From contig QMPG01000101.1 of assembly GCA_003648455.1 (NCBI GenBank), forward strand, positions 1-9,380: a DNA stretch of 9,380 nucleotides, given 5' to 3'. Positions 220 to 9,114 of this stretch are shown piece after piece. The stretch comes from Bacteroidota bacterium (GTDB lineage Bacteria; Bacteroidota; Bacteroidia; Bacteroidales; B39-G9). The notes below the pieces were generated by a model. The model saw only the letters and a list, made by a program, of their open reading frames with translations. It had not been told where the DNA came from and did no database searches. The number at the start of each line of letters is the position of its first letter. Within the stretch, counting starts at the first letter, position 1. The position numbers and the translations under genes are program-made.

Positions 220-1491
220 TTATAATTTCGCCATCTTATCCCAAAGTTTTTTACTAAGTTCTTGAGACATTGATAAAATTTTCTGCTCGTCAACAGTTTG
301 AATAATTTTGTTTTTAACAATTAGTTTGCCCGAAGAAATAACATGTTCAACATGTTTCGATTCAATGCCAAAAATGAAATGCCCTAAAAAATTATTTTGA
401 TTAATCTCAGTAGGAGAGTCGTAGTCTAAAACTACCAGGTTATTATCACCATCTCCAATAAAATTGTTATCAGCAATGTATTGATGCACTTTTCTAAACC
501 GAGAGTAAGCACCGGGGAAATCAATATTATCAAAACCTTGTCCTACATAAAAAGCAGCTTTAGCACTACGTAACATGTCGCTGTGCATTCCGTCTGTTCC
601 AAGCATAATGTTGTCGCCAAGATTTTGCGAATTAAAATAACCAACATTATTATTTAAATTGCTTTCGGTATTTTGAACAACATAAGCATTTGAGTTTCTT
701 ACAATTTGTTTTTCATTATCGTCAAGATGAAGACAATGACCAAGTATTGTTTTAGAAGAGTTTAAAACACCAAAATCGTTAAACCGTTCAATAATTCGTT
801 TGTTGTAGTTTTTTATACTGTGATCTTCATCATATTTATCTTCTGCAACATGAACATGAATACCTGAATTGTATTTATTTGATAGGTCAACAGCTTTTTT
901 TAAAGTGTCGTTACAAACAGTAAATGAAGCATGCAAGCCAACTAAACCCTGTTGTGTTTTTAAATAGTTCTCTGTTTCATCTAATCCTTTTTGAGCAATA
1001 TCTAAGCCGTCTCGGTCAGATATTTCGTAACATAGCAAATGAGATACACCAACTTTGTCAAAAGCTGCTGCAATTGTTTCTAATGAGCCTTCAATTGCAA
1101 AAGGAGAGGCGTGATGATCAATAGCAAAAGTAACTCCACTTTTTGCACATGCCATTGCTGTTGTTAAGGCACTAGCCTCAATCATTTCTTTATCAAGACA
1201 TTTGTCGAGTGTCCACCAAATGTAGGTTAATACATCAAGAAAATTTTCGGGATTTTTTTTAGGAGCACCCATGCCTCTCGACAATGCAGAGTAAACATGA
1301 TGATGTCCGCATGCAAACGATTTAGTAACAATTTTATTATTACAGTCAATTATTTCGTTTGGATTGATGTTCTCAGGAAGTTTATCAATAAATTGTATTT
1401 TCCCTTTTTTCCCTTGTTCTACTTGTATGTTTGTTTTTTTAAATTCTAGGGTAACGCTATCAACGTAAGTAGCGTTTTTTAAGTAAATCAT
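220..1491 (-). CDS. ssnA: SsnA-family amidohydrolase/aminohydrolase
   Basis: A 423-residue metal-dependent amidohydrolase of the chlorohydrolase/cytosine-deaminase superfamily, slightly shorter than E. coli SsnA (about 440). The HxH metal motif is at H63/H65 in CGHHHVYSALSRGM. Other likely ligands are H212/H214 with E217 (HVHVAED), H252/H255 and D300 (LGTDGMHSDM). SsnA-specific stretches are DHHASP (125-130) with EGSLETI just after, and LDYDSPT near 355-361. The usual GxxADLxI strand before the last of these has decayed to GDGDNNLVVL. The protein should act in the cytosol, hydrolysing a C-N bond in a heterocyclic or amidine-like substrate; the exact substrate is not evident. The start ATG lies 15 bp after the SiaC-family stop, implying coupled expression, and a strong hairpin follows the stop. 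Homologues sit beside ygfK in purine/selenium-linked clusters, and ygfK is in this window. Family assignment is firm; the reaction is inferred. Confidence 0.93.
   Translation of the reverse strand: MIYLKNATYVDSVTLEFKKTNIQVEQGKKGKIQFIDKLPENINPNEIIDCNNKIVTKSFACGHHHVYSALSRGMGAPKKNPENFLDVLTYIWWTLDKCLDKEMIEASALTTAMACAKSGVTFAIDHHASPFAIEGSLETIAAAFDKVGVSHLLCYEISDRDGLDIAQKGLDETENYLKTQQGLVGLHASFTVCNDTLKKAVDLSNKYNSGIHVHVAEDKYDEDHSIKNYNKRIIERFNDFGVLNSSKTILGHCLHLDDNEKQIVRNSNAYVVQNTESNLNNNVGYFNSQNLGDNIMLGTDGMHSDMLRSAKAAFYVGQGFDNIDFPGAYSRFRKVHQYIADNNFIGDGDNNLVVLDYDSPTEINQNNFLGHFIFGIESKHVEHVISSGKLIVKNKIIQTVDEQKILSMSQELSKKLWDKMAKL
1453..1476 (-). promoter_or_regulatory. Small hairpin in first codons of ssnA
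   Basis: AACGCTA (1453-1459) and TAGCGTT (1470-1476) pair over 7 bp around a 10-nt loop. In the mRNA the stem covers roughly codons 6 to 13 of ssnA, about 15 nt after the start codon. In a message without a Shine-Dalgarno this could affect translation initiation. It may equally be chance, because the bases also code for ordinary residues (NATYVDSV). Confidence 0.25.
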
Positions 1492-1506
1492 ATTTAGTCT
1501 AAAATT

Positions 1507-1899
1507 TTAAGTGTTATAATCATAATCATGAAGAGGAATGAAATTCATTGGGATCTTTACTAAAGTGGCAAATATTTTACCATCATTAAAAATTTCTTCG
1601 TCATCATAGTACCAATCAATTTCAATATTTGAACCGGAATTATAAAAATGTTCAATTTTTTTTAAAAGAGTTAATATAATCCTGTTTGATGCAGAGTTAA
1701 AGTAATAAAGTTTTAGTGAGAAAACTATTTTTTGGGTTTTAAATTTTCCTAAATTATTTTCAATCCAATTAAAAACAGGTTTATATTCTTCAATTGGATC
1801 CTGGGGATAAGAATGACCTGAAATTTCAAATTTATTAATCTCAGGAATAAACATAATATTTGGAAAAGATTTTGTACCTTCAATAATTAGATTGTCCAT
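1507..1899 (-). CDS. SiaC-family regulatory phosphoprotein (DUF1987)
   Basis: A 130-residue soluble protein with no signal peptide or membrane segment. It shows the DUF1987/SiaC pattern: an N-terminal strand pair around TKSFPNIMF and INKFEISGHSYPQDP (residues 9-35), helix VFNWIENNL (42-50), then LKLYYFNSASNR (62-73) and a long helix. In Pseudomonas SiaC the equivalent loop (FNTSS) carries the phosphorylated threonine; here the matching residue would be S69, with S71 nearby. SiaC proteins are anti-sigma-like partners controlled by a kinase (SiaB) and a PP2C phosphatase (SiaA), neither of which is in the window. The gene lies between the threonine-synthase-like gene (60 bp upstream) and ssnA (15 bp downstream), so it is probably co-transcribed with them. 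Why it sits in a catabolic operon is unclear. The role is inferred from the family, which is mostly uncharacterised in Bacteroidetes. Confidence 0.82.
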   Translation of the reverse strand: MDNLIIEGTKSFPNIMFIPEINKFEISGHSYPQDPIEEYKPVFNWIENNLGKFKTQKIVFSLKLYYFNSASNRIILTLLKKIEHFYNSGSNIEIDWYYDDEEIFNDGKIFATLVKIPMNFIPLHDYDYNT

Positions 1900-1905
1900 A
1901 AGTTG

Positions 1906-1932
1906 ATAGTTGATAGTTAATAAAACAACTAT
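1906..1932. repeat. Short inverted repeat with heptamer duplication before siaC-like gene
   Basis: The intergenic gap holds a tandem heptamer (GTTGATA twice, about 1902-1915). A 7-bp inverted pair, ATAGTTG (1906-1912) and CAACTAT (1926-1932), lies just ahead of the start codon on the minus strand. It might act as an mRNA processing or translational element, but the sequence is AT-rich and the match is short. Confidence 0.3.
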
Positions 1933-1959
1933 AAATTTATAAATAATTTATTAATAACC

Positions 1960-3207
1960 TTACAAAAGAGATAAAATTTTTTCTAAATCATCTAGATTCG
2001 GATTGATTGGTTTTGGGAAATCTATCAAACTTTGTACAGAATTCAGGTCTTTTAAGCCACTTCCTGTCAATAAAACAACATTTTTTGAATTATCTTTTAT
2101 TTTTTTATTCTCTTTATATTTTAAAATTCCTGCAAAAGCCGCTGCTGCTGCCGGTTCTGAAAAAATACCGGTGTTTTTGCTTAAAGTTAATGATGCTTTC
2201 ATAATTTCATCATCAGAAACCGATACGATTTCTCCTTTATACTTTTTAATAAAATCTTTAGCCATATAATAATTTCGCGGTATATCTACAGCAATTGAAT
2301 CTGCAATTGTGTTGCTTGCTTTTGAAACAAATTTATCATTATCGATATTATTAATTATGTTACTGCTACCTTCTGATTGCACAGCTACAATTGTGGGGAT
2401 TTTATTAATGACACCTAATTTTAATAAATCTTCAAAACCTTTGTAAACACCGGATATAATTACACCATCACCAACAGGTACAAAAATTCTATCAGGAATA
2501 TGTTTCCCTAATTGTGAGAATATTTCAAACGAAACAGTTTTTTTTCCTTCAATAGTGAACGGGTTAAAAGCAGTATTTCTGTTATACCAGCCAAATTTTT
2601 TTGTAGCTTCAATGCTAAGATCAAAAGCATCGTCGTAAGTTCCGGCAACAGGAATTATTTGTGCACCATACATAACAATTTGTGTTAGCTTTGCTTTTGG
2701 TGCTGATGCTGGCACGAATATTATGGCTTTTTGCTTTTGAGAAGCACAAATACCTGCAAGCGACGAACCTGCATTGCCTGTTGATGCAGCTACTATTGTA
2801 TTTATTCTGTTTTCTTTTGCATAGCCAGATACTATATATGAAGCTCGGTCTTTAAAAGAGAATGTTGGATTTTGAGAATCGTCTTTTAAAAAGATTTCAA
2901 AATCTATTTTTTCTCCGTCTATTGAATCAATTTTATACAAAGGAGTTTTCCCAACACGTAAATATGGTAAGTTCGTTTTTGAATTAATAGGAAGAAGTTC
3001 TAAAAAATCATTTTTTTCAAGATTATCAAATATATCTTGTGGTTTTACATTGCTTTTAATTGTGTCATATTCATAAATGGTTTTTAGAACACCTTTGGGT
3101 GGCATTGTGTTTGTGTTATCTTTTTCACAATCGGGACAAAGATAGCTTACTTCGTTTGAAGCATATTTTTTACCACAGTTTATACATTCAAAATAAAATT
3201 TACTCAT
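1960..3207 (-). CDS. Threonine synthase-like PLP-dependent enzyme with zinc ribbon
   Basis: A 415-residue fold-type II PLP enzyme of the archaeal/actinobacterial threonine synthase type. An N-terminal zinc ribbon has C8, C11, C24 and C27 (CxxC...CPDC). The Schiff-base lysine is K119 in FSFKDRAS. The substrate/PLP loop is STGNAGSS (142-149), the phosphate-binding glycine loop is PVGDG (244-248), and the C-terminal PLP-ring motif is TGSGLKD (381-387). Canonical activity converts O-phosphohomoserine to threonine and phosphate. In most Bacteroidetes the biosynthetic enzyme is the longer E. coli/yeast type in a thrABC operon, so this zinc-ribbon form may be a paralogue with another substrate, perhaps a beta- or gamma-eliminating step. 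It leads a probable operon with the siaC-like gene and ssnA. The start at 3207 places the zinc ribbon at the very N-terminus, as expected. There is no Shine-Dalgarno. Fold and family are firm; calling it biosynthetic ThrC is not. Confidence 0.85.
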   Translation of the reverse strand: MSKFYFECINCGKKYASNEVSYLCPDCEKDNTNTMPPKGVLKTIYEYDTIKSNVKPQDIFDNLEKNDFLELLPINSKTNLPYLRVGKTPLYKIDSIDGEKIDFEIFLKDDSQNPTFSFKDRASYIVSGYAKENRINTIVAASTGNAGSSLAGICASQKQKAIIFVPASAPKAKLTQIVMYGAQIIPVAGTYDDAFDLSIEATKKFGWYNRNTAFNPFTIEGKKTVSFEIFSQLGKHIPDRIFVPVGDGVIISGVYKGFEDLLKLGVINKIPTIVAVQSEGSSNIINNIDNDKFVSKASNTIADSIAVDIPRNYYMAKDFIKKYKGEIVSVSDDEIMKASLTLSKNTGIFSEPAAAAAFAGILKYKENKKIKDNSKNVVLLTGSGLKDLNSVQSLIDFPKPINPNLDDLEKILSLL

Positions 3208-3316
3208 GATTTCAGTTTAAAAAGTCAGGTTTTGAATATTTTTACAAATCCCAACAATGTTTAAATGTTGATATTCAGTCTGTTAGAAATTTAAGCCCTG
3301 GCTATAGAATATACTC

Positions 3317-3345
3317 GCTATTTCGAATTTGAAATCCGAAATAGC
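3317..3345. repeat. Hairpin repeat (GCTATTTCG / CGAAATAGC)
   Basis: A perfect 9-bp inverted repeat, 3317-3325 against 3337-3345, encloses an 11-nt loop. It lies in the gap between the TrpB-like gene and the threonine-synthase-like gene, and no T-run follows on either strand, so it is not a standard terminator. It might be an mRNA 3'-end stabiliser or processing site for the TrpB-like transcript, or part of a dispersed repeat. Confidence 0.6.
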
Positions 3346-3354
3346 TGTGAATAA

Positions 3355-3413
3355 AACACAGATAACATAGGTTTTATTCTGCGATTATCCGCTTAATCTG
3401 TGTCATCTGTGTT
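3355..3413. repeat. Dispersed intergenic inverted repeat of the ATCTGTGT type
   Basis: AACACAGATAACA (3355-3367) pairs with TGTCATCTGTGTT (3401-3413) at 12 of 13 positions. The right arm also holds a direct duplication, ATCTGTGTCATCTGTGT (3396-3412). Between the arms is a partly palindromic GCGATTATCCGC (3381-3392). Closely similar ATCTGTGTCATCTGTGTTC strings recur between genes in many bacterial genomes, which I recall rather than searched. It starts 17 nt past the TrpB-like stop and could serve as its 3' structure. Confidence 0.65.
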
Positions 3414-3429
3414 CTAAATTAATACTCTT

Positions 3430-4899
3430 TTACAAATTTTTTAAGACGCCGGTTCTCTCGTTAAATTCCATAATTTCTTGATCCCACTCCTCGACTTTTG
3501 AGTATTCATTTTTCCAATAGTTTTCGTCATACCATTGGGCATTTAATTCTTCAACAGTTTTGCCTTGTTGCTCAATCCATGTGAAATATTTAAGGTTGTG
3601 CATACGTTTCTTTTCGTAATATGTCATTTCAATCATATTATCAATGGTTAATCCCATTAAGTCAGCAGTAAAACAAACATCAGCTTTACGTGCATTATAC
3701 TCACCGAATTTTGCTTTCTCTTCAACCATACGAGATTGGTACATTTCCATTGAATCTGTAGCAACAGTAAATACAACATCATTCTCGTTCATTTCGTAAT
3801 ATTTTGCCATTTTAATAGCACCCATTACGTTAGCGATAGAAGATATTCCCAATAATTCAAGTTTATTAACTAATTCAGGATCAATACCTTTTTCTTCAAT
3901 TAAGAATTTTTTACCTTCAGGCTCGTTAAACAATCTCATAATGTGCATGTTAGGCTCATCATCGATACCTGCAACCATATCCATATTTTTTAAGTTATGA
4001 ATCCATGGAACGTGCTTGTCACCAATACCTTCAATACGGTGACCACCATAGCCGTTATACAATAGGGTAGGGCACTGTAATGCTTCTCCTGCACAAACTT
4101 TTACCTGTGGATGAATTTCTCTAATATAATCGGCACAACCTAAGGTACCTGCGGAACCCTGAGTTAAGAAAATTGCGCTAAAGCGACTTTTGTCGTTCTT
4201 ATCTGCATTGAAAACTTCTTCCATTGCAGGACCTGTAACTGCATAATGCCATAATGAATTACCAATCTCACTAAATTGATTAAGATTAACAATACCATCG
4301 CCTCTTTCGTGTAATAATTCTTTAGCTTTGTCGTAAATCTCTTTTACATTACTTTCACATCCGGGTGTTGCAAAAACTTCTGCACCTACTTTATGTAACC
4401 AGTCAAAACGTTCTTGCGACATTTGTTCAGGTAATACAGCAACAGAATCGCAACCTAAAAGATAAGAGTCGTAAGCACCACCACGACAATAATTTCCTGT
4501 TGATGGCCATAAAGCTTTTTGTGTTGTTGGGTCAAAAGTTCCGCTAACCAATTTCTCAACCAATGGACCAAATGTTGCTCCAACTTTATGTGCTCCTGTT
4601 GGAAAAAATTTCCCAATAAGAACTTTAATTTTTGCTTTTACTCCTGTTAGTTCAGGTGGTAATTCAATGTAATTAACGTTACCAAAACCGCCACCAAATT
4701 TTACAGGTTCGTTTTTCCAAGTGATTCTAAAAAGGTTTAGTGAATTTAAGTCCCATAAACCAATATTTTTTAACCTATCTTTAATCTTGTCGGGAATTAA
4801 TTCAGGATTTCTCATTTGTTTGTATGTAGGGATAATCATTTTTCTTTCCCTGCATCGTTTAATAGTATTCTCTAATACTTGTTCTTTTGTTTTTGCCAT
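3430..4899 (-). CDS. TrpB-like fold-type II PLP-dependent enzyme, substrate unknown
   Basis: A 489-residue cytosolic enzyme related to the tryptophan synthase beta/cysteine synthase superfamily. The probable Schiff-base lysine is K105 in FFPTGAHKVGATFG, strikingly like the TGAHK motif of TrpB. Then follow STGNYCRGG (133-141), the substrate-binding loop, and TQGSAGTLG (246-254), the phosphate-binding glycine loop. GIGDKHVPWI (291-300) and a conserved-looking acidic/aromatic C-terminal tail after about residue 410 are additional. At 489 residues it is longer than TrpB (about 400), with an N-terminal extension of about 60 residues and a C-terminal extension of about 80. It lacks the TrpB context (no trpA or trp genes) and does not have the YgeX or OrtB lysine motifs as I remember them, so neither label is supported. 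It is divergent from an Lrp regulator and upstream of the threonine-synthase-like operon. Similar proteins are usually annotated only as PLP-dependent enzyme. A lyase or beta-replacement role on an amino acid is likely but not proven. Confidence 0.85.
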   Translation of the reverse strand: MAKTKEQVLENTIKRCRERKMIIPTYKQMRNPELIPDKIKDRLKNIGLWDLNSLNLFRITWKNEPVKFGGGFGNVNYIELPPELTGVKAKIKVLIGKFFPTGAHKVGATFGPLVEKLVSGTFDPTTQKALWPSTGNYCRGGAYDSYLLGCDSVAVLPEQMSQERFDWLHKVGAEVFATPGCESNVKEIYDKAKELLHERGDGIVNLNQFSEIGNSLWHYAVTGPAMEEVFNADKNDKSRFSAIFLTQGSAGTLGCADYIREIHPQVKVCAGEALQCPTLLYNGYGGHRIEGIGDKHVPWIHNLKNMDMVAGIDDEPNMHIMRLFNEPEGKKFLIEEKGIDPELVNKLELLGISSIANVMGAIKMAKYYEMNENDVVFTVATDSMEMYQSRMVEEKAKFGEYNARKADVCFTADLMGLTIDNMIEMTYYEKKRMHNLKYFTWIEQQGKTVEELNAQWYDENYWKNEYSKVEEWDQEIMEFNERTGVLKNL

Positions 4900-4950
4900 T
4901 TTTTTAATTTAATTATGTTTGTCGTTATAAATTTATTTTCATTTGAGATA

Positions 4951-4958
4951 CAAAAGTA
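4951..4958 (-). promoter_or_regulatory. Candidate -7 promoter box for the TrpB-like gene
   Basis: Read on the minus strand this is TACTTTTG, an exact fit to the Bacteroidetes TAnnTTTG -7 element. It lies about 52 bp ahead of the ATG, which would give a leader of about 45 nt. No TTG element is visible 17-23 bp upstream, so support rests on this box and its position alone. Confidence 0.5.
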
Positions 4959-5002
4959 AGTATTTTTTTAGTTTATAGATAAATATTTTGTAATTATATG
5001 AT

Positions 5003-5049
5003 AATAATAGAAAATATTACTAATTTTTTGCAAATAATAGGAAATATAA
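5003..5049. promoter_or_regulatory. Direct repeat, possible Lrp-type operator
   Basis: AATAATAGAAAATATTA (5003-5019) recurs as AATAATAGGAAATATAA (5033-5049), identical at 15 of 17 positions with a 30-bp period, near three helical turns. It lies between the two divergent start codons, just upstream of the lrp -7 box. Lrp/AsnC proteins bind AT-rich phased sites and often regulate their own gene and divergent neighbours, so this is a plausible operator. The AT-rich background raises the chance of coincidence. Confidence 0.45.
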
Positions 5050-5060
5050 TTAAATATACG

Positions 5061-5068
5061 TATTTTTG
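5061..5068 (+). promoter_or_regulatory. Candidate -7 promoter box for the lrp/asnC gene
   Basis: TATTTTTG matches TAnnTTTG exactly and lies 38 bp before the chosen ATG at 5107. A TTTG at 5027-5030 is the nearest upstream -33-like element, but its 30-bp spacing is longer than the usual 17-23. The box also argues against translation from the GTG at 5068, which overlaps it. Confidence 0.5.
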
Positions 5069-5106
5069 TGTTAATAAATAAGCCAAATGAACTGAGATTT
5101 TTAATT

Positions 5107-5574
5107 ATGAAAAAATTAGATAAGATAGATTTTAATTTAATTAGTATTTTGCAAACCAATGCACGGATAACAATAAAAGAAATATCGGCAAAATTAGGAC
5201 TATCGAAAACACCAATTTACGAGAGAATAAAAAAGCTTGAAAAATTCGGATTCATAAAACAATATGTAGCATTAGTCGATAATAAAAAAATTGATAAGGG
5301 CTTAATAATTTATATTTCAGTATCACTTAACAAACATCATAAAAGTGTTGTTGATAATTTTATTAAAAAGGTAAATAGTTTGCATGAAGTAATGGAGTGC
5401 TATTACATATCGGGTAATGCAGATTTTTTGTTAAAAGTATACACAAAAGACATGGATGGATATAAAGATTTTATTGAAAATAAGTTTTCTGTTATTAGTG
5501 ATATTAATCAATTTTTCAGCTCATTTGTTATGGACACTACAAAATATCAAACTGCTTTTGAGTTTAACGAATAA
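5107..5574 (+). CDS. Lrp/AsnC-family transcriptional regulator
   Basis: A 155-residue DNA-binding regulator of typical Lrp/AsnC length. The N-terminal winged helix-turn-helix covers residues 4-50, starting with LDKIDFNLISILQTNAR and with the recognition helix in LGLSKTPIYERIKKLEKFGFI. The C-terminal RAM (ligand-binding, oligomerisation) domain runs from about 63 to 148 and holds the characteristic ISGNADFLLKV (101-111), where D106 is the usual effector-loop aspartate. The start at the ATG of MKKLDKID gives the family's normal N-terminus; an in-frame GTG 39 bp earlier overlaps the promoter box and is rejected. It is divergent from the TrpB-like gene and convergent with ygfK. Members usually sense amino acids and control neighbouring amino-acid or nitrogen genes, so autoregulation plus control of the adjacent PLP enzyme and ygfK is likely. 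The effector cannot be read from sequence. Confidence 0.93.
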   Translation: MKKLDKIDFNLISILQTNARITIKEISAKLGLSKTPIYERIKKLEKFGFIKQYVALVDNKKIDKGLIIYISVSLNKHHKSVVDNFIKKVNSLHEVMECYYISGNADFLLKVYTKDMDGYKDFIENKFSVISDINQFFSSFVMDTTKYQTAFEFNE

Positions 5575-5588
5575 CAGATTTTTTTTAT

Positions 5589-5613
5589 TCCCTCTTGGAG
5601 AAGAGTGTTAGGG
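5589..5613. repeat. Degenerate hairpin repeat after lrp
   Basis: CTCTT (5592-5596) pairs with AAGAG (5601-5605) around GGAG, flanked by CCC on the left and an offset GGG on the right. The string resembles a worn copy of the CCCTCTCC...GGAGAGGG palindromes common between Bacteroidetes genes (recalled, not searched). It begins about 15 nt after the lrp stop and may contribute to the transcript's 3' structure. Confidence 0.4.
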
Positions 5614-5648
5614 AGATTGAATTGTTTCAAATTGCTATGTAATTTTTA

Positions 5649-5678
5649 AAATCTCGCAGATTTGGAAATTTTTTTTTT
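5649..5678 (+). terminator. Weak candidate intrinsic terminator for lrp
   Basis: AAATCT (5649-5654) pairs with AGATTT (5658-5663) around CGC. Five bases later comes an uninterrupted run of ten T (5669-5678). The stem is short and AT-rich and the T-run is not directly adjacent, so efficiency would be modest. It lies about 75 nt beyond the lrp stop on the correct strand. Confidence 0.4.
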
Positions 5679-5712
5679 ATACAACACAACCAAGTCATGC
5701 AAAAACAGAGAT

Positions 5713-5823
5713 CGTCATGCTGAACTCGTTTCAGCATCCCTCAATTGAAACAAGAACCAGATCCCGAAACGAGTTCGGGATGACAGGTAATACAACCCGT
5801 CATGCTGAACTTGTTTAAGCATG
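5713..5823. repeat. Triplet of related hairpin repeats with compensatory stem changes
   Basis: Three copies of a roughly 26-nt hairpin unit: A at 5713-5738 (plus), B at 5760-5784 (inverted) and C at 5798-5823 (plus). A has stem ATGCTGAA/TTCAGCAT (5717-5724, 5730-5737). B has ATCCCGAA/TTCGGGAT (5761-5768, 5774-5781). C matches A except for three bases, one of which breaks a pair. A and B share GTCAT and GAACTCGTTT when B is reverse-complemented, but their stems differ as GCT..AGC against CCC..GGG, so pairing is kept. Copy C ends four bases from the ygfK stop codon and could form the 3' end of that mRNA. This family is familiar as a dispersed intergenic repeat in bacteria (recalled). No transposase is present. 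Confidence 0.85.
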
Positions 5824-5826
5824 ATT

Positions 5827-8800
5827 TTAATCCTCAAAGAAATACAAACCCTGTGCAGCTTCAATTAACACACTCATTTGTGCTGCAAAATCAAAAGTCG
5901 CATTGTTTACAGATTTGTCAAAATTAGCTTCAATTAAAGAGAAACCAGCTTTTTCAAATTTAGCATTAATCTTTTCTTCTTTATAGATAAAAGTTTTTTC
6001 ATCAGAAATTAATTCCTTTATGCCTTTTTCATCTTTATAAATCAAATGATTTTTAGCTTTTAAGATAAATCCGTATTCGGCATCGTCAAAACTTTGCTGT
6101 GATAAATAAAATTTAGGTTTATCTTTAAATGGTGCTCCGTTTGTAGGACAAAAAGTAGTACAGTTGCCACATTCATTACAGAAATCACCTATATTTAAAA
6201 CTTGATGCTTTTGTTTAATAGAGAAAAGTTTATCATCTTCAAATACAATATTATTACCTTTTCTAACGGCTTTTTTTAACTTATATGCAACCGGTTTTGT
6301 GTCATAAGAGTAATTAGCTCTGTTTGGACAAACGGTTACGCAAACGTTGCATATTTCATCACAGAATAAACATCTAGAGGCTTCTTTCATAGCTTCTTCT
6401 TTTGTGAGAGTTGAAGTTATGAGATTAAAATTGTTTCTGTCGCTTAAAGGAGTTTCTTTAATTTTTAAACCATATTCACGCTTAGCTCGTTTTACTAATA
6501 GTTCATCATAAGTTATATCCTTTTTATTTTCGACAGGTTTAATATTATATTCTTTGTGAGATTTTTCAATAATATTTTGAGCAACTTTTTTACCATCTGC
6601 AACAGCACTAATAATTGAAGTGCCACCGGTTAAAGCATCACCGCCAAGAAAAACATTCTCTATTTTTGTTTCAAATGTGAAATCATTCACTTCTAATAAA
6701 TCATTATCAACAAAATCAATATCAAGGTCTTGTCCAACCGAAGGAATTATTGTGTCGAAAGGGATTTCAAATTCAGAACCGTCAATCTTTACAGGACGAG
6801 CTCTTCCGCTTTCATCTTTTTCAGAAAGCTTCATTTTACTGCATTTCAATGATTTTATTTTACCTTTTTCTGCAATAATTTCTTCAGGTGAAGTGAGTTC
6901 CAGAATTTCAATTCCTTCTTGCAAACAAGCGTTAATCTCATAATAATCAGCTGGCATCTGGTTAATTGTTCTTCTATAAACAATGCTTACTTTTGCATTA
7001 TCACCTGCAAGGCGGAGAGCTGTTCGTGCTGCATCCATTGCAGTATTTCCACCGCCAATTATTGCAATATTTTTACCAATATTTACTTGCTTGTTATTTT
7101 TTATATCAAATAAAAATTGTAAAGGCTCAAAAACTCCTTTAGTTTCAATTCCGTTTATTCTTAATTTTTTTGATGCCTGTGCACCTGTTGCCAGATAAAT
7201 ATAATTGTTTTCTTTCTGTAATTGTGAAAATTTATCTTTGTCAATTTTAGTATTGTAATTAATGTTAACACCGAGTTTTTCAATTCGTTCAACATCTTTT
7301 TTAATATCTTCATCAGTTAATCTGAACGATGGAATTGCATTTGCAACCATTCCTCCCGATTTACTGTAATTTTCATAAATATTTACTTCAAATCCTGATA
7401 ATGCTAAGAAATATGCACACGATAACCCTGACGGACCTGCACCAATAATAGCAACTTTAATACCATTTGCAGAAGCTTTTTTAGGCATAAAATTTTCATG
7501 ATTTTGCTCTGTTACGAAGCGTTTTATATCTCTAATTAATAATGAGTTATCGTAATTAATGCGAGTGCATTTTGTTTGGCACAAATGGTCGCAAACCATT
7601 CCTGTAACCGATGGCAACGGATTTGTATTCATAATAACCTCAAAAGCTTTATCAAAATCTCCTTTTGAAGTGTGATACATATATTCGGGAATTGCTTGAT
7701 TCGTTGGACAAGTGCCAACACACGGAGCACTAATGCAATCGAAATAATTTAATTCTCTGTCTGTTTTAATACTTGGTTCTTTCAAGTATTGTCTTTTATA
7801 GTGTTCATTATCTACAACATTATCGGCATATCTGTTCAGATTATTGAGAGCTGCTTTTTTAACATCTATATCGTTGTTCGATTTATTTTTTCTTAAAATA
7901 AACTGTTCAATTTTTGCGGCTTTATTATCAATAAAATCTTTTTGCAACTCATCAACATACTGCTTTAGACGACCATAACCTCCGGGTTTTAAAATGTCTG
8001 ACGAAACAGTAACTGTATTAAATCCGCAAGAAATTAAATCACTAATATTAAATGAATTTGCACCTCCTGAAAAAGATATAGCCAATTCGCCATTAAATTC
8101 ATTTTGGAGTTTTCTTGCCAAATTAACAGAAATTGGATGCAAAGCACGTCCGCTCATATACATCATGTTTGCTGTTTCTTTTGCAAAAACATCTCTGTTG
8201 TTTATGCTTTCGAGAGTGTTGGTTAGTTTTAAGCCAAAATCAACATTATTGTCTTTTGCACTTTGTGTAAGCGATTTAATAATATTAATTGCATCTTTGT
8301 ATTTTAAATCGTGTTCAAAAGCAATATCGGGAATAACAGCTGTAAAATTTAATTTATTGTTTAAAATATCTCTGAGTTCTTTTGCTCCTATAAGAGTAGG
8401 GTTTAACTTAATTATTGTATTAAGTTTTTTATCTTCAATAAGATATAAACCAATTTTTTCAATTTCATCGGGTGGACATCCGTGCATTGTCGATAAAGTA
8501 ATATTATCTGAAATACAATCGGGAATATTTAAGTTAACAATGTTTGGGTAGATGTCTTTAAGCTGGTTTATCTTCTCGTCTTTTTCAGCCTTACAGTTTT
8601 TCATTTTTTCGAAAAACCATTGAACGTTGTCGTTTAATATGCCTTCTAGATTATATCCTACACTCATATTGAAAATTGTACCAATATCTGCTTTCCAATT
8701 AAATTTATCTCGTAAAATATGAATTATTATCCATGCATTAAGGTATTCGTCAAAAGCTTGGTGAATTTTCAACTCTTGCGACCATTCACAGTTATAACCT

Positions 8801-9114
8801 TCGTCTTGCATGTCAATACAAGGTTTTGGAACATCAAGCTCGTCAAGAGTTTGAATTGTTTTTAATTCAATATATCGGGCTCCGCACAACCATGCAGATA
8901 TAATATTTTCAGACAATTGAGTATGTGGACCTGCAGCAACGCCAATAGGAGTTTCAAGGGCTTGATTGAAACGACTTGTTTCAAAAACGTCATATTCTTT
9001 AGGAGTGAAAAATAAATTTTTATGAATACCAAATATTTGATTTTTAGTTTTTTCTTCGTTTAAGATTAATTGTAAAAGTGTTTTAATGTTTGCAGGGAAA
9101 AATTTATCAGACAT
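5827..9114 (-). CDS. ygfK: YgfK-type multidomain flavo-iron-sulfur oxidoreductase
   Basis: A 1095-residue cytosolic oxidoreductase, slightly longer than E. coli YgfK (about 1030). Residues 1-395 form a dihydroorotate/dihydropyrimidine dehydrogenase-like barrel, with PIGVAAGPHTQL (56-67), FNMSVGYNLEG (148-158), STMHGCPPDEIE (208-219), KLNPTL (236-241), GLKLTNTL (294-301), SGRALHP (321-327) and an FMN-phosphate-like SGGAN (349-353). Residues 455-535 carry GltD-type [4Fe-4S] cysteines C460, C465, C469, C508, C512 and C516. An FAD dinucleotide fold has GAGPSG (558-563), an NAD(P)H fold GGGNTAMD (687-694) with VYRR (712-715), and GGDALTGG (824-831) closes the FAD site. The C-terminal ferredoxin module has C915, C918, C922, C925, C929 and C979, C982, C985, C989. 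Electrons likely run from NAD(P)H through FAD and Fe-S clusters to the barrel, reducing a heterocycle. Family annotation as selenate reductase is doubtful; homologues are tied to purine/uric acid breakdown. The start fits E. coli YgfK alignment. It is convergent with the lrp gene. Confidence 0.95.
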   Translation of the reverse strand: MSDKFFPANIKTLLQLILNEEKTKNQIFGIHKNLFFTPKEYDVFETSRFNQALETPIGVAAGPHTQLSENIISAWLCGARYIELKTIQTLDELDVPKPCIDMQDEGYNCEWSQELKIHQAFDEYLNAWIIIHILRDKFNWKADIGTIFNMSVGYNLEGILNDNVQWFFEKMKNCKAEKDEKINQLKDIYPNIVNLNIPDCISDNITLSTMHGCPPDEIEKIGLYLIEDKKLNTIIKLNPTLIGAKELRDILNNKLNFTAVIPDIAFEHDLKYKDAINIIKSLTQSAKDNNVDFGLKLTNTLESINNRDVFAKETANMMYMSGRALHPISVNLARKLQNEFNGELAISFSGGANSFNISDLISCGFNTVTVSSDILKPGGYGRLKQYVDELQKDFIDNKAAKIEQFILRKNKSNNDIDVKKAALNNLNRYADNVVDNEHYKRQYLKEPSIKTDRELNYFDCISAPCVGTCPTNQAIPEYMYHTSKGDFDKAFEVIMNTNPLPSVTGMVCDHLCQTKCTRINYDNSLLIRDIKRFVTEQNHENFMPKKASANGIKVAIIGAGPSGLSCAYFLALSGFEVNIYENYSKSGGMVANAIPSFRLTDEDIKKDVERIEKLGVNINYNTKIDKDKFSQLQKENNYIYLATGAQASKKLRINGIETKGVFEPLQFLFDIKNNKQVNIGKNIAIIGGGNTAMDAARTALRLAGDNAKVSIVYRRTINQMPADYYEINACLQEGIEILELTSPEEIIAEKGKIKSLKCSKMKLSEKDESGRARPVKIDGSEFEIPFDTIIPSVGQDLDIDFVDNDLLEVNDFTFETKIENVFLGGDALTGGTSIISAVADGKKVAQNIIEKSHKEYNIKPVENKKDITYDELLVKRAKREYGLKIKETPLSDRNNFNLITSTLTKEEAMKEASRCLFCDEICNVCVTVCPNRANYSYDTKPVAYKLKKAVRKGNNIVFEDDKLFSIKQKHQVLNIGDFCNECGNCTTFCPTNGAPFKDKPKFYLSQQSFDDAEYGFILKAKNHLIYKDEKGIKELISDEKTFIYKEEKINAKFEKAGFSLIEANFDKSVNNATFDFAAQMSVLIEAAQGLYFFED

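Follow-up and report, generated by a model that had tools for sequence, protein, structure and literature searches.

The window examined here, the 9,380-nucleotide contig QMPG01000101.1 of the Bacteroidota bacterium assembly GCA_003648455.1, encodes two enzymes of reductive uric-acid degradation, YgfK and SsnA, together with two fold-type II pyridoxal phosphate (PLP) enzymes, a zinc-ribbon threonine-synthase-like protein (ThrCL) and a CysK/CBS-like protein (CysKL). It is likely, although well short of certain, that the window is part of a uric-acid degradation cluster whose last step proceeds via ThrCL, with CysKL, and not via the 2,3-diaminopropionate ammonia-lyase YgeX. Both PLP genes are linked to and co-occur with genes of the pathway, YgeX is rare in the genomes that carry them, and ThrCL tends to alternate with YgeX. 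That both enzymes belong to the uric-acid pathway is close to certain, and ThrCL is quite probably the functional counterpart of YgeX; for CysKL, an L-serine-forming beta-replacement reaction is proposed tentatively, by analogy. We infer all reactions and substrates given below for the two enzymes.

The reductive pathway was described step by step in 2025 (PMC12507026; PMC12990295). In Escherichia coli, XdhD is described to reduce uric acid to yanthine, which is dearomatised by YgfK, and the rings are opened by SsnA and HyuA (PMC12507026). YgeW and YgeY strip the ureido groups, giving 2,3-diaminopropionate, and YgeX cleaves this compound to pyruvate and ammonia (PMC12507026; commentary PMC12990295). 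YgeX is described as active on both diaminopropionate isomers (PMC12507026); according to the commentary, an R (D-type) configuration of the intermediates has been proposed but is not settled (PMC12990295).

The association of the two PLP enzymes with the pathway was analysed in Bacteroidales, the order of the related locus L080 (L and G numbers denote loci and genomes). YgfK was found over the cut-off in 91 of 393 genomes. From the 85 of these that had not already been met through CysKL, the first 50 in draw order were taken as the YgfK-positive group and compared with 30 YgfK-negative genomes; genomes with a partial YgfK or one below the cut-off were placed in neither group. This sampling omits six known carriers of CysKL and so works against an association with it; one of the 50 (G081) was later found to be the genome of the CysKL locus L048. 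ThrCL was present in 43, CysKL in 46, SsnA in 47, YgeW in 46 and YgeY in 49 of the 50 YgfK-positive genomes, counts in which some matches are partial or weak (CysKL of G189, YgeW of G158, the YgeY of G234 below the cut-off and an SsnA of 35% in G174), and none of the five was found in any of the 30 YgfK-negative genomes. Both PLP genes occurred together in 41 of the 50. YgeX, searched at E 1e-30, was found in 3/50 YgfK-positive and 1/30 YgfK-negative genomes, never over the curated TIGR03528 cut-off of 532 bits. Fisher tests gave p-values of about 1e-15 or below for ThrCL, CysKL, SsnA, YgeW and YgeY, not for YgeX, ignoring kinship and with YgfK-positive and -negative genomes that may come from different families of the order. 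The link of CysKL and ThrCL to YgfK is about as close as that of the proven pathway enzymes SsnA, YgeW and YgeY; YgeX shows no such link. Among the individual genomes, G117 has YgfK, SsnA, YgeW, YgeY and a YgeX match of 499 bits and neither ThrCL nor CysKL, G173 has CysKL and YgeX without ThrCL, and in G133 ThrCL occurs with a partial YgeX match (294 bits). The genome G174 gave no match to YgeX, ThrCL, CysKL or YgeW, and its cluster (L151) encodes YgeY, YgfK, SsnA, HyuA and XdhD/C/YgfM, which reflects a gap in the assembly or else a further pathway ending.

CysKL was also searched for in one genome per species from 84,980 species. This gave at least 592 confirmed places, and since only the best 80 were kept as loci, the sample favours close relatives. 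With the E. coli and the window proteins as references for annotation, a purine cluster could be recognised around CysKL at 41 of these best 80 loci, while 45 of the 80 contain ThrCL and four a match to YgeX; these are minimum counts because many loci are on short contigs. The proximity of homologues of the PLP genes to ygfK or ssnA, on which the original prediction of a variant purine-catabolism island depended, is indeed conserved in these 41 loci. A recurrent gene order in Bacteroidales is ygfK-cysKL-thrCL-xdh-ssnA(-hyuA), at times interrupted (L003, L050, L080, L142, L143), with Lrp opposite cysKL in several loci; HyuA and XdhD are linked in L003, L050 and L143. The variant had been thought of as a Bacteroidetes one; it does occur in Bacteroidales but is not confined there, being also present in Cloacimonadota, Chloroflexota, Halanaerobiales, Synergistota, Elusimicrobiota, Calditrichota, Bipolaricaulota and others, by co-occurrence in at least 10 phyla. 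The two PLP enzymes are accompanied by various of YgeW, YgeY, HyuA, SsnA and YqeA in Chloroflexota, Halanaerobiales, Synergistota and others. A tree of 81 CysKL proteins has purine-linked members in both of its main halves. The window CysKL clusters with proteins from two Cloacimonadota metagenome-assembled genomes (MAGs; L001 and L002, support 99/88), although the nearest genomes belong to Bacteroidales, which suggests transfer between phyla or mis-binning.

To look at whole genomes, 47 of the 80 loci were followed up, chosen mainly for a purine or ThrCL context, so that the presence of ThrCL (at least 270 bits) in 43 of the 47 is partly a matter of choice. A clear YgeX was found in five of them (366-618 bits, two over the cut-off); the other 42 gave at most 69 bits to TIGR03528 or no match, and 41 of these 42 have ThrCL. 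A standard YgeX ending elsewhere in the genome, as would have spoken against a variant, is thus mostly absent from relatives of the window, in this set as in the YgfK-positive Bacteroidales. Three of the four CysKL genomes without ThrCL have YgeX (G029, G034, G038) and one, a 1.3-Mb assembly (G022), does not, so YgeX occurs in 3/4 genomes without ThrCL versus 2/43 with it (p = 0.0024). In L067, the locus of G038, the genes are ordered ygfK-cysKL-ygeX with gaps of 10 bases, and ygeX occupies the slot held by thrCL in relatives. The 50 YgfK-positive Bacteroidales followed a weaker trend (2/7 versus 1/43, p = 0.048), and pooling all sets, including the genomes with a 'lone' CysKL, gave 5/14 versus 4/100 (p = 0.0013). 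Of the two enzymes, ThrCL is therefore the one that tends to be exchanged for YgeX, and CysKL regularly accompanies the variant. The earlier proposal that one of the two PLP enzymes could replace or extend the YgeX step gains support from this alternation and from the co-occurrence, with a putative role of the enzymes in the chemistry.

The 'lone' loci, 18 of the 80 with CysKL away from any recognised cluster, were treated as a separate set, and 15 further loci were in neither set. In the 17 'lone' genomes searched, ThrCL (at least 260 bits) was found in 14 and SsnA (at least 340 bits) in 12, with SsnA and ThrCL neighbours or nearly so in four, and the idea that a 'lone' CysKL is a generic enzyme was mostly rejected given the ThrCL in 14/17. 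Neither ThrCL nor SsnA reached these scores in G440, G446 and G450 (L026, L034 and L059; Aminicenantes, KSB1 and Heimdallarchaeota), where another use of CysKL is possible.

ThrCL has an N-terminal zinc ribbon (Cys8/11/24/27), and its structure was modelled with a pLDDT of 94.7. Short-form threonine synthases of Bacillus subtilis, Thermus thermophilus and Aquifex aeolicus are its closest sequences and, with the Arabidopsis enzyme, its closest folds, but ThrCL differs from them at sites that are invariant within its own family: besides the zinc ribbon, GNAGN is changed to GDGxI and EGQK to EGKK in the substrate site throughout the family, and R210 and D303 are gained, which together with K222 and D247 are the diagnostic residues. 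The positions aligned with Arg160 and Asn188 of the T. thermophilus enzyme, which we take to be contacts of the substrate phosphate, are T/M/L218 and D247. ThrCL stays under the cut-offs of the five PRK-type threonine synthase models listed. TIGR03528 is not among the 25 families listed of 42 that match ThrCL; like YgeX, ThrCL is a fold-type II PLP enzyme, and it aligns along most of the length of YgeX (hhalign, 99.8%).

The second PLP enzyme had been described as TrpB-like. CysKL is CysK/CBS-like instead: its best models are CysK and CysKM (100 and 99 bits), and its 12 NCBIfam matches (E 0.001) include neither a TrpB model, nor a model for OrtB (2-amino-4-oxopentanoate thiolase), nor TIGR03528, so TrpB and OrtB were rejected as identities. 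The score to cysteine synthase A (TIGR01139) is 100.5 bits, far from the cut-off of 350.95, and an alignment of four YgeX sequences gave no useful hhalign match. The model of CysKL (pLDDT 92.7) has its closest folds in beta-cyanoalanine synthase, CysK-type enzymes, Fn1055, O-ureidoserine synthase and CBS, and the 41 locus proteins aligned are 58-83% identical to the window protein. Fn1055 (CysK2) of Fusobacterium nucleatum is described to convert cysteine and water to L-serine and sulfide (PMC9865163), and its D232N variant was crystallised with the aminoacrylate intermediate, according to the title of the PDB entry. The Fn1055 segment HRIEGISDEFIP aligns with HRIEGIGDKHVPW of CysKL, placing D294 of CysKL opposite Asp232, where chain position 236 is taken as Asp232 on the assumption of a four-residue N-terminal tag (340 residues in the chain, 336 in the native protein). 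D294 is invariant in 105 of 105 readable rows (106 in total) of an alignment in which some CysKL rows, like some ThrCL rows, represent the same gene twice, whereas the five CysK and CBS examples compared have A or Y at this position. CysKL shares with Fn1055 the CysK fold and the Asp in HRIEGIxD, but is longer by about 150 residues, shows about 22% identity to it and contains a PSTGNYCRGG loop that is unusual. Identity to the cysteate synthase CapA2 of Alistipes finegoldii is 20%; CapA2 carries out sulfonate chemistry, and we know of no link between it and purine genes.

In the proposed pathway, XdhD, YgfK, SsnA, HyuA, YgeW and YgeY would convert uric acid to 2,3-diaminopropionate as known, and ThrCL would act in the place of YgeX as an ammonia-lyase that yields pyruvate and ammonia. 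By analogy to Fn1055, CysKL could form aminoacrylate from 2,3-diaminopropionate and add water to give L-serine, which would be deaminated by ThrCL or serve as a source of glycine and one-carbon units. In full, this would be a two-enzyme terminus in which CysKL hydrolytically swaps the beta-amino group of diaminopropionate for a hydroxyl group, giving L-serine, and ThrCL, as a threonine-synthase-like enzyme adapted to a cationic substrate, deaminates diaminopropionate and/or serine to pyruvate; in this detailed form we regard it as a working model with less than an even chance. Several observations weigh against the assignment. ThrCL scores 197.7 bits to the threonine synthase family TIGR00260, over the curated cut-off of 167.1. 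It lacks D120 and D189 of YgeX, which are presumably catalytic; the residues aligned with them by hhalign are T143 and N211. The alternation is not clean either: in the pooled sets, 9/14 genomes without ThrCL have no YgeX and 4/100 genomes with ThrCL do have it, and in the YgfK-positive Bacteroidales YgeX is present in only 2/7 genomes without ThrCL, which may in part be due to the many incomplete MAGs. CysKL alone cannot replace YgeX, since it is retained where YgeX is present. Finally, if the intermediate were D-configured (PMC12990295), L-specific enzymes of the CysK/ThrC type would need an unusual stereochemistry or a racemase.

A stricter division of labour, with CysKL converting diaminopropionate and water to L-serine and ammonia and ThrCL being an L-serine ammonia-lyase inactive on diaminopropionate, would be in line with the alignment of D294 with Asp232 of Fn1055, with the serine/glycine genes near CysKL in a few loci (L068, L030, L016) and with the matches of ThrCL to threonine/serine deaminases; we think it unlikely, since YgeX would then make CysKL dispensable, yet G029, G034 and G038 keep CysKL in genomes that have YgeX and no ThrCL. 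A racemase or epimerase function of CysKL, supplying L-diaminopropionate from the D-isomer for an L-specific ThrCL, would fit the proposed D-configuration (PMC12990295) and the need of a partner when YgeX, described as active on both isomers (PMC12507026), is replaced by an L-specific enzyme. Fold-type II does include racemases, but CysKL matches beta-replacement enzymes of the CysK/CBS type best, the 60 sequences and 50 folds listed include no racemase, and a loss of D-isomer chemistry in the YgeX of CysKL genomes, as a sign of such a partnership, was not seen: the residues aligned with D120 and D189 are kept where readable and give no sign of L-specificity. We consider a racemase quite improbable. 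The odds are slightly poorer still, in our view, for CysKL acting one step earlier by cleaving albizziin (2-amino-3-ureidopropionate) with release of urea and thereby bypassing YgeY, because 45 of the 49 YgfK-positive Bacteroidales with YgeY also have CysKL and the YgeY step is consequently not lost.

Two further explanations place the enzymes outside the carbon flow from uric acid. CysK-type enzymes handle sulfide or selenide, and SelA is encoded two genes from CysKL in L016, so that CysKL might supply sulfur or selenium for the molybdenum hydroxylase of the cluster. SelA or SelB-like genes were noticed close to CysKL at no more than 4 of the 80 loci, though (SelB-like by eye), and no CysK-like gene besides ygeX is listed in the cluster region of E. 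coli K-12; we consider this role highly improbable. Hardly any credence can be given to the view that ThrCL makes threonine and CysKL cysteine, as genuine synthases carried along for biosynthesis, as the family names and the TIGR00260 score of ThrCL might imply. The absence of both genes from all 30 YgfK-negative Bacteroidales argues that they are not housekeeping genes of the order, ThrCL has T/M/L and Asp at the presumed phosphate sites of ThrC, and CysKL reaches 100 bits against a CysK cut-off of 351.

Compared with the E. coli cluster (xdhD, ygfK, ssnA, hyuA, ygeW, yqeA, ygeY, ygeX), the window shares YgfK and SsnA; G133 and G234, the genomes nearest to it, also have YgeW and YgeY, as do nearly all YgfK-positive Bacteroidales. 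The variant differs in being mostly without YgeX and having two other PLP enzymes, and in the Lrp gene beside cysKL. In Clostridioides difficile, UacX is described in place of YgfK and UacY in place of YgeW (PMC12507026); there, too, single steps are carried by unrelated enzymes, but YgeX is retained, whereas in the window-type variant it is the last step that differs. The pathway paper lists six phyla with SsnA, Bacteroidota not included, and labels YgeX with a generic domain, PALP (PF00291); its main text contains neither threonine nor serine nor Bacteroid* (PMC12507026). Because ThrCL and CysKL carry PF00291 too, this domain alone cannot separate them from YgeX. None of the open-access papers seen on the pathway describes a two-enzyme ending, a search that left subscription papers, such as a 2025 study on C. 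sporogenes, and supplements outside. The uric-acid pathway matters for gout and nitrogen recycling. About a quarter of the Bacteroidales sample has YgfK, and these genomes, together with many candidate phyla, are indicated to use another ending, so that two widespread enzyme families, probably mis-named as threonine and cysteine synthases, gain a testable function. If the proposal is true, serine, glycine and one-carbon metabolism would receive a direct input from uric acid, and ThrCL and CysKL would both be new enzymes.

The features of the window are listed in Table 1. Six full open reading frames (ORFs) were found, and the five on the minus strand are transcribed in the order ygfK, cysKL, thrCL, siaC-family gene, ssnA, with the opposite-facing lrp interposed. 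YgfK, SsnA, the zinc-ribbon threonine-synthase-like enzyme and Lrp had all been predicted close to these positions, and their ORFs and family matches confirm them; the gene inventory held in these parts, but the SiaC-family gene had been missed. YgeW, YgeX and YgeY, said to be outside the window, are indeed not among the six proteins scanned, and neither is Xdh. YgfK scores 930 bits to TIGR03315 and thereby passes the curated cut-off of 835.3. For SsnA, NF005540 (389.7 bits, cut-off 444) and TIGR03314 (341 bits, cut-off 455.5) are the best families although it remains under both cut-offs; its membership rests on the best match and the conserved neighbourhood. Since SsnA scores under the NCBIfam cut-offs, loci of this type may escape annotation.

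Table 1 Features of the 9,380-nucleotide window
Feature	Position	Strand	Assignment
SsnA	220..1491	-	amidohydrolase, opens reduced pyrimidine ring of dihydro-yanthine; best NCBIfam models NF005540, TIGR03314
SiaC-family (DUF1987) regulatory phosphoprotein	1507..1899	-	PF09345, 101 bits
ThrCL	1960..3207	-	zinc-ribbon threonine-synthase-like fold-type II PLP enzyme; PF00291, TIGR00260
CysKL (489 aa)	3430..4899	-	CysK/CBS-like fold-type II PLP enzyme; CysK 100 bits
AT-rich divergent control region, cysKL/lrp	4900..5067		TACGTA/TAAGTA-type half-sites between A/T runs; imperfect inverted repeats
Lrp/AsnC-family regulator	5068..5574	+	Lrp 118 bits; divergent from cysKL
YgfK	5827..9114	-	NAD(P)H-dependent Fe-S/flavin reductase of yanthine; TIGR03315

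Lrp, likely a local regulator, is the opposite-strand neighbour of CysKL in five related loci as well (L050, L064, L070, L142 and L132, the latter from G234). The divergent region between cysKL and lrp contains an inverted repeat at 4950-5069 with the arms ACAAAAGTAAGTATTTTT and AAATATACGTATTTTTGT, not set against chance, and similar motifs are retained in G234; judged by sequence, the inverted repeats of this region are candidate Lrp sites. A search of the window and of 8 of 189 loci for riboswitches gave none at gathering score.

The SiaC-family gene is probably a passenger outside the conserved cluster: no SiaC gene was found among the best 80 CysKL loci or between ThrCL and SsnA of G133. 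It occupies the interval between thrCL and ssnA in which several related Bacteroidales loci carry xdh; in G133 this interval is a gap of 613 bases with no ORF of at least 70 aa.

In the neighbourhood of CysKL, serine/glycine genes were seen in a few of the 80 loci and are only suggestive: GlyA (serine hydroxymethyltransferase) separates ThrCL from CysKL in L068, GcvH/GcvPA follow CysKL in L030, and a PGDH-like gene adjoins it in L016. In the latter locus (5143-9803), SelA (466 bits) and a SelB-like gene stand alongside the PGDH-like gene and CysKL, and SelB-like genes (cluster c23, identified by eye) are located within 10 kb of CysKL in L022, L065 and L077. Candidatus Euphemobacter frigidus MAG_3300031227_11 has two copies of CysKL, one before gcvH/gcvPA (L030) and one before a YgeX gene (L032), together with two YgeX matches and one ThrCL. 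Diplocloster modestus ASD4241 (L052), which is in culture, encodes YgeX in addition to ThrCL and CysKL. A glycosyltransferase (cluster c14) adjoins CysKL in several Chloroflexota.

The genomes nearest to the window are G234 and G133. CysKL, YgfK, SsnA and Lrp of G234 are 96, 89, 87 and 88% identical to the window proteins, with Lrp again opposite CysKL, and ThrCL, SsnA and YgfK of G133 are 89, 94 and 91% identical. ThrCL was not found in G234, which has no YgeX at E 1e-30 and an SsnA cut off at the contig start, and CysKL was not found in the genome of G133; the missing genes may be assembly gaps. YgeW and YgeY are present in both genomes, the YgeY of G234 being split over two contigs. In G133 (L140, 5978-16528), the interval between ygfK and thrCL holds minus-strand genes that by eye resemble [FeFe]-hydrogenase-, NuoE- and SpoIIE-type genes, with YgfT-like matches; this set is possibly an electron-transfer partner.

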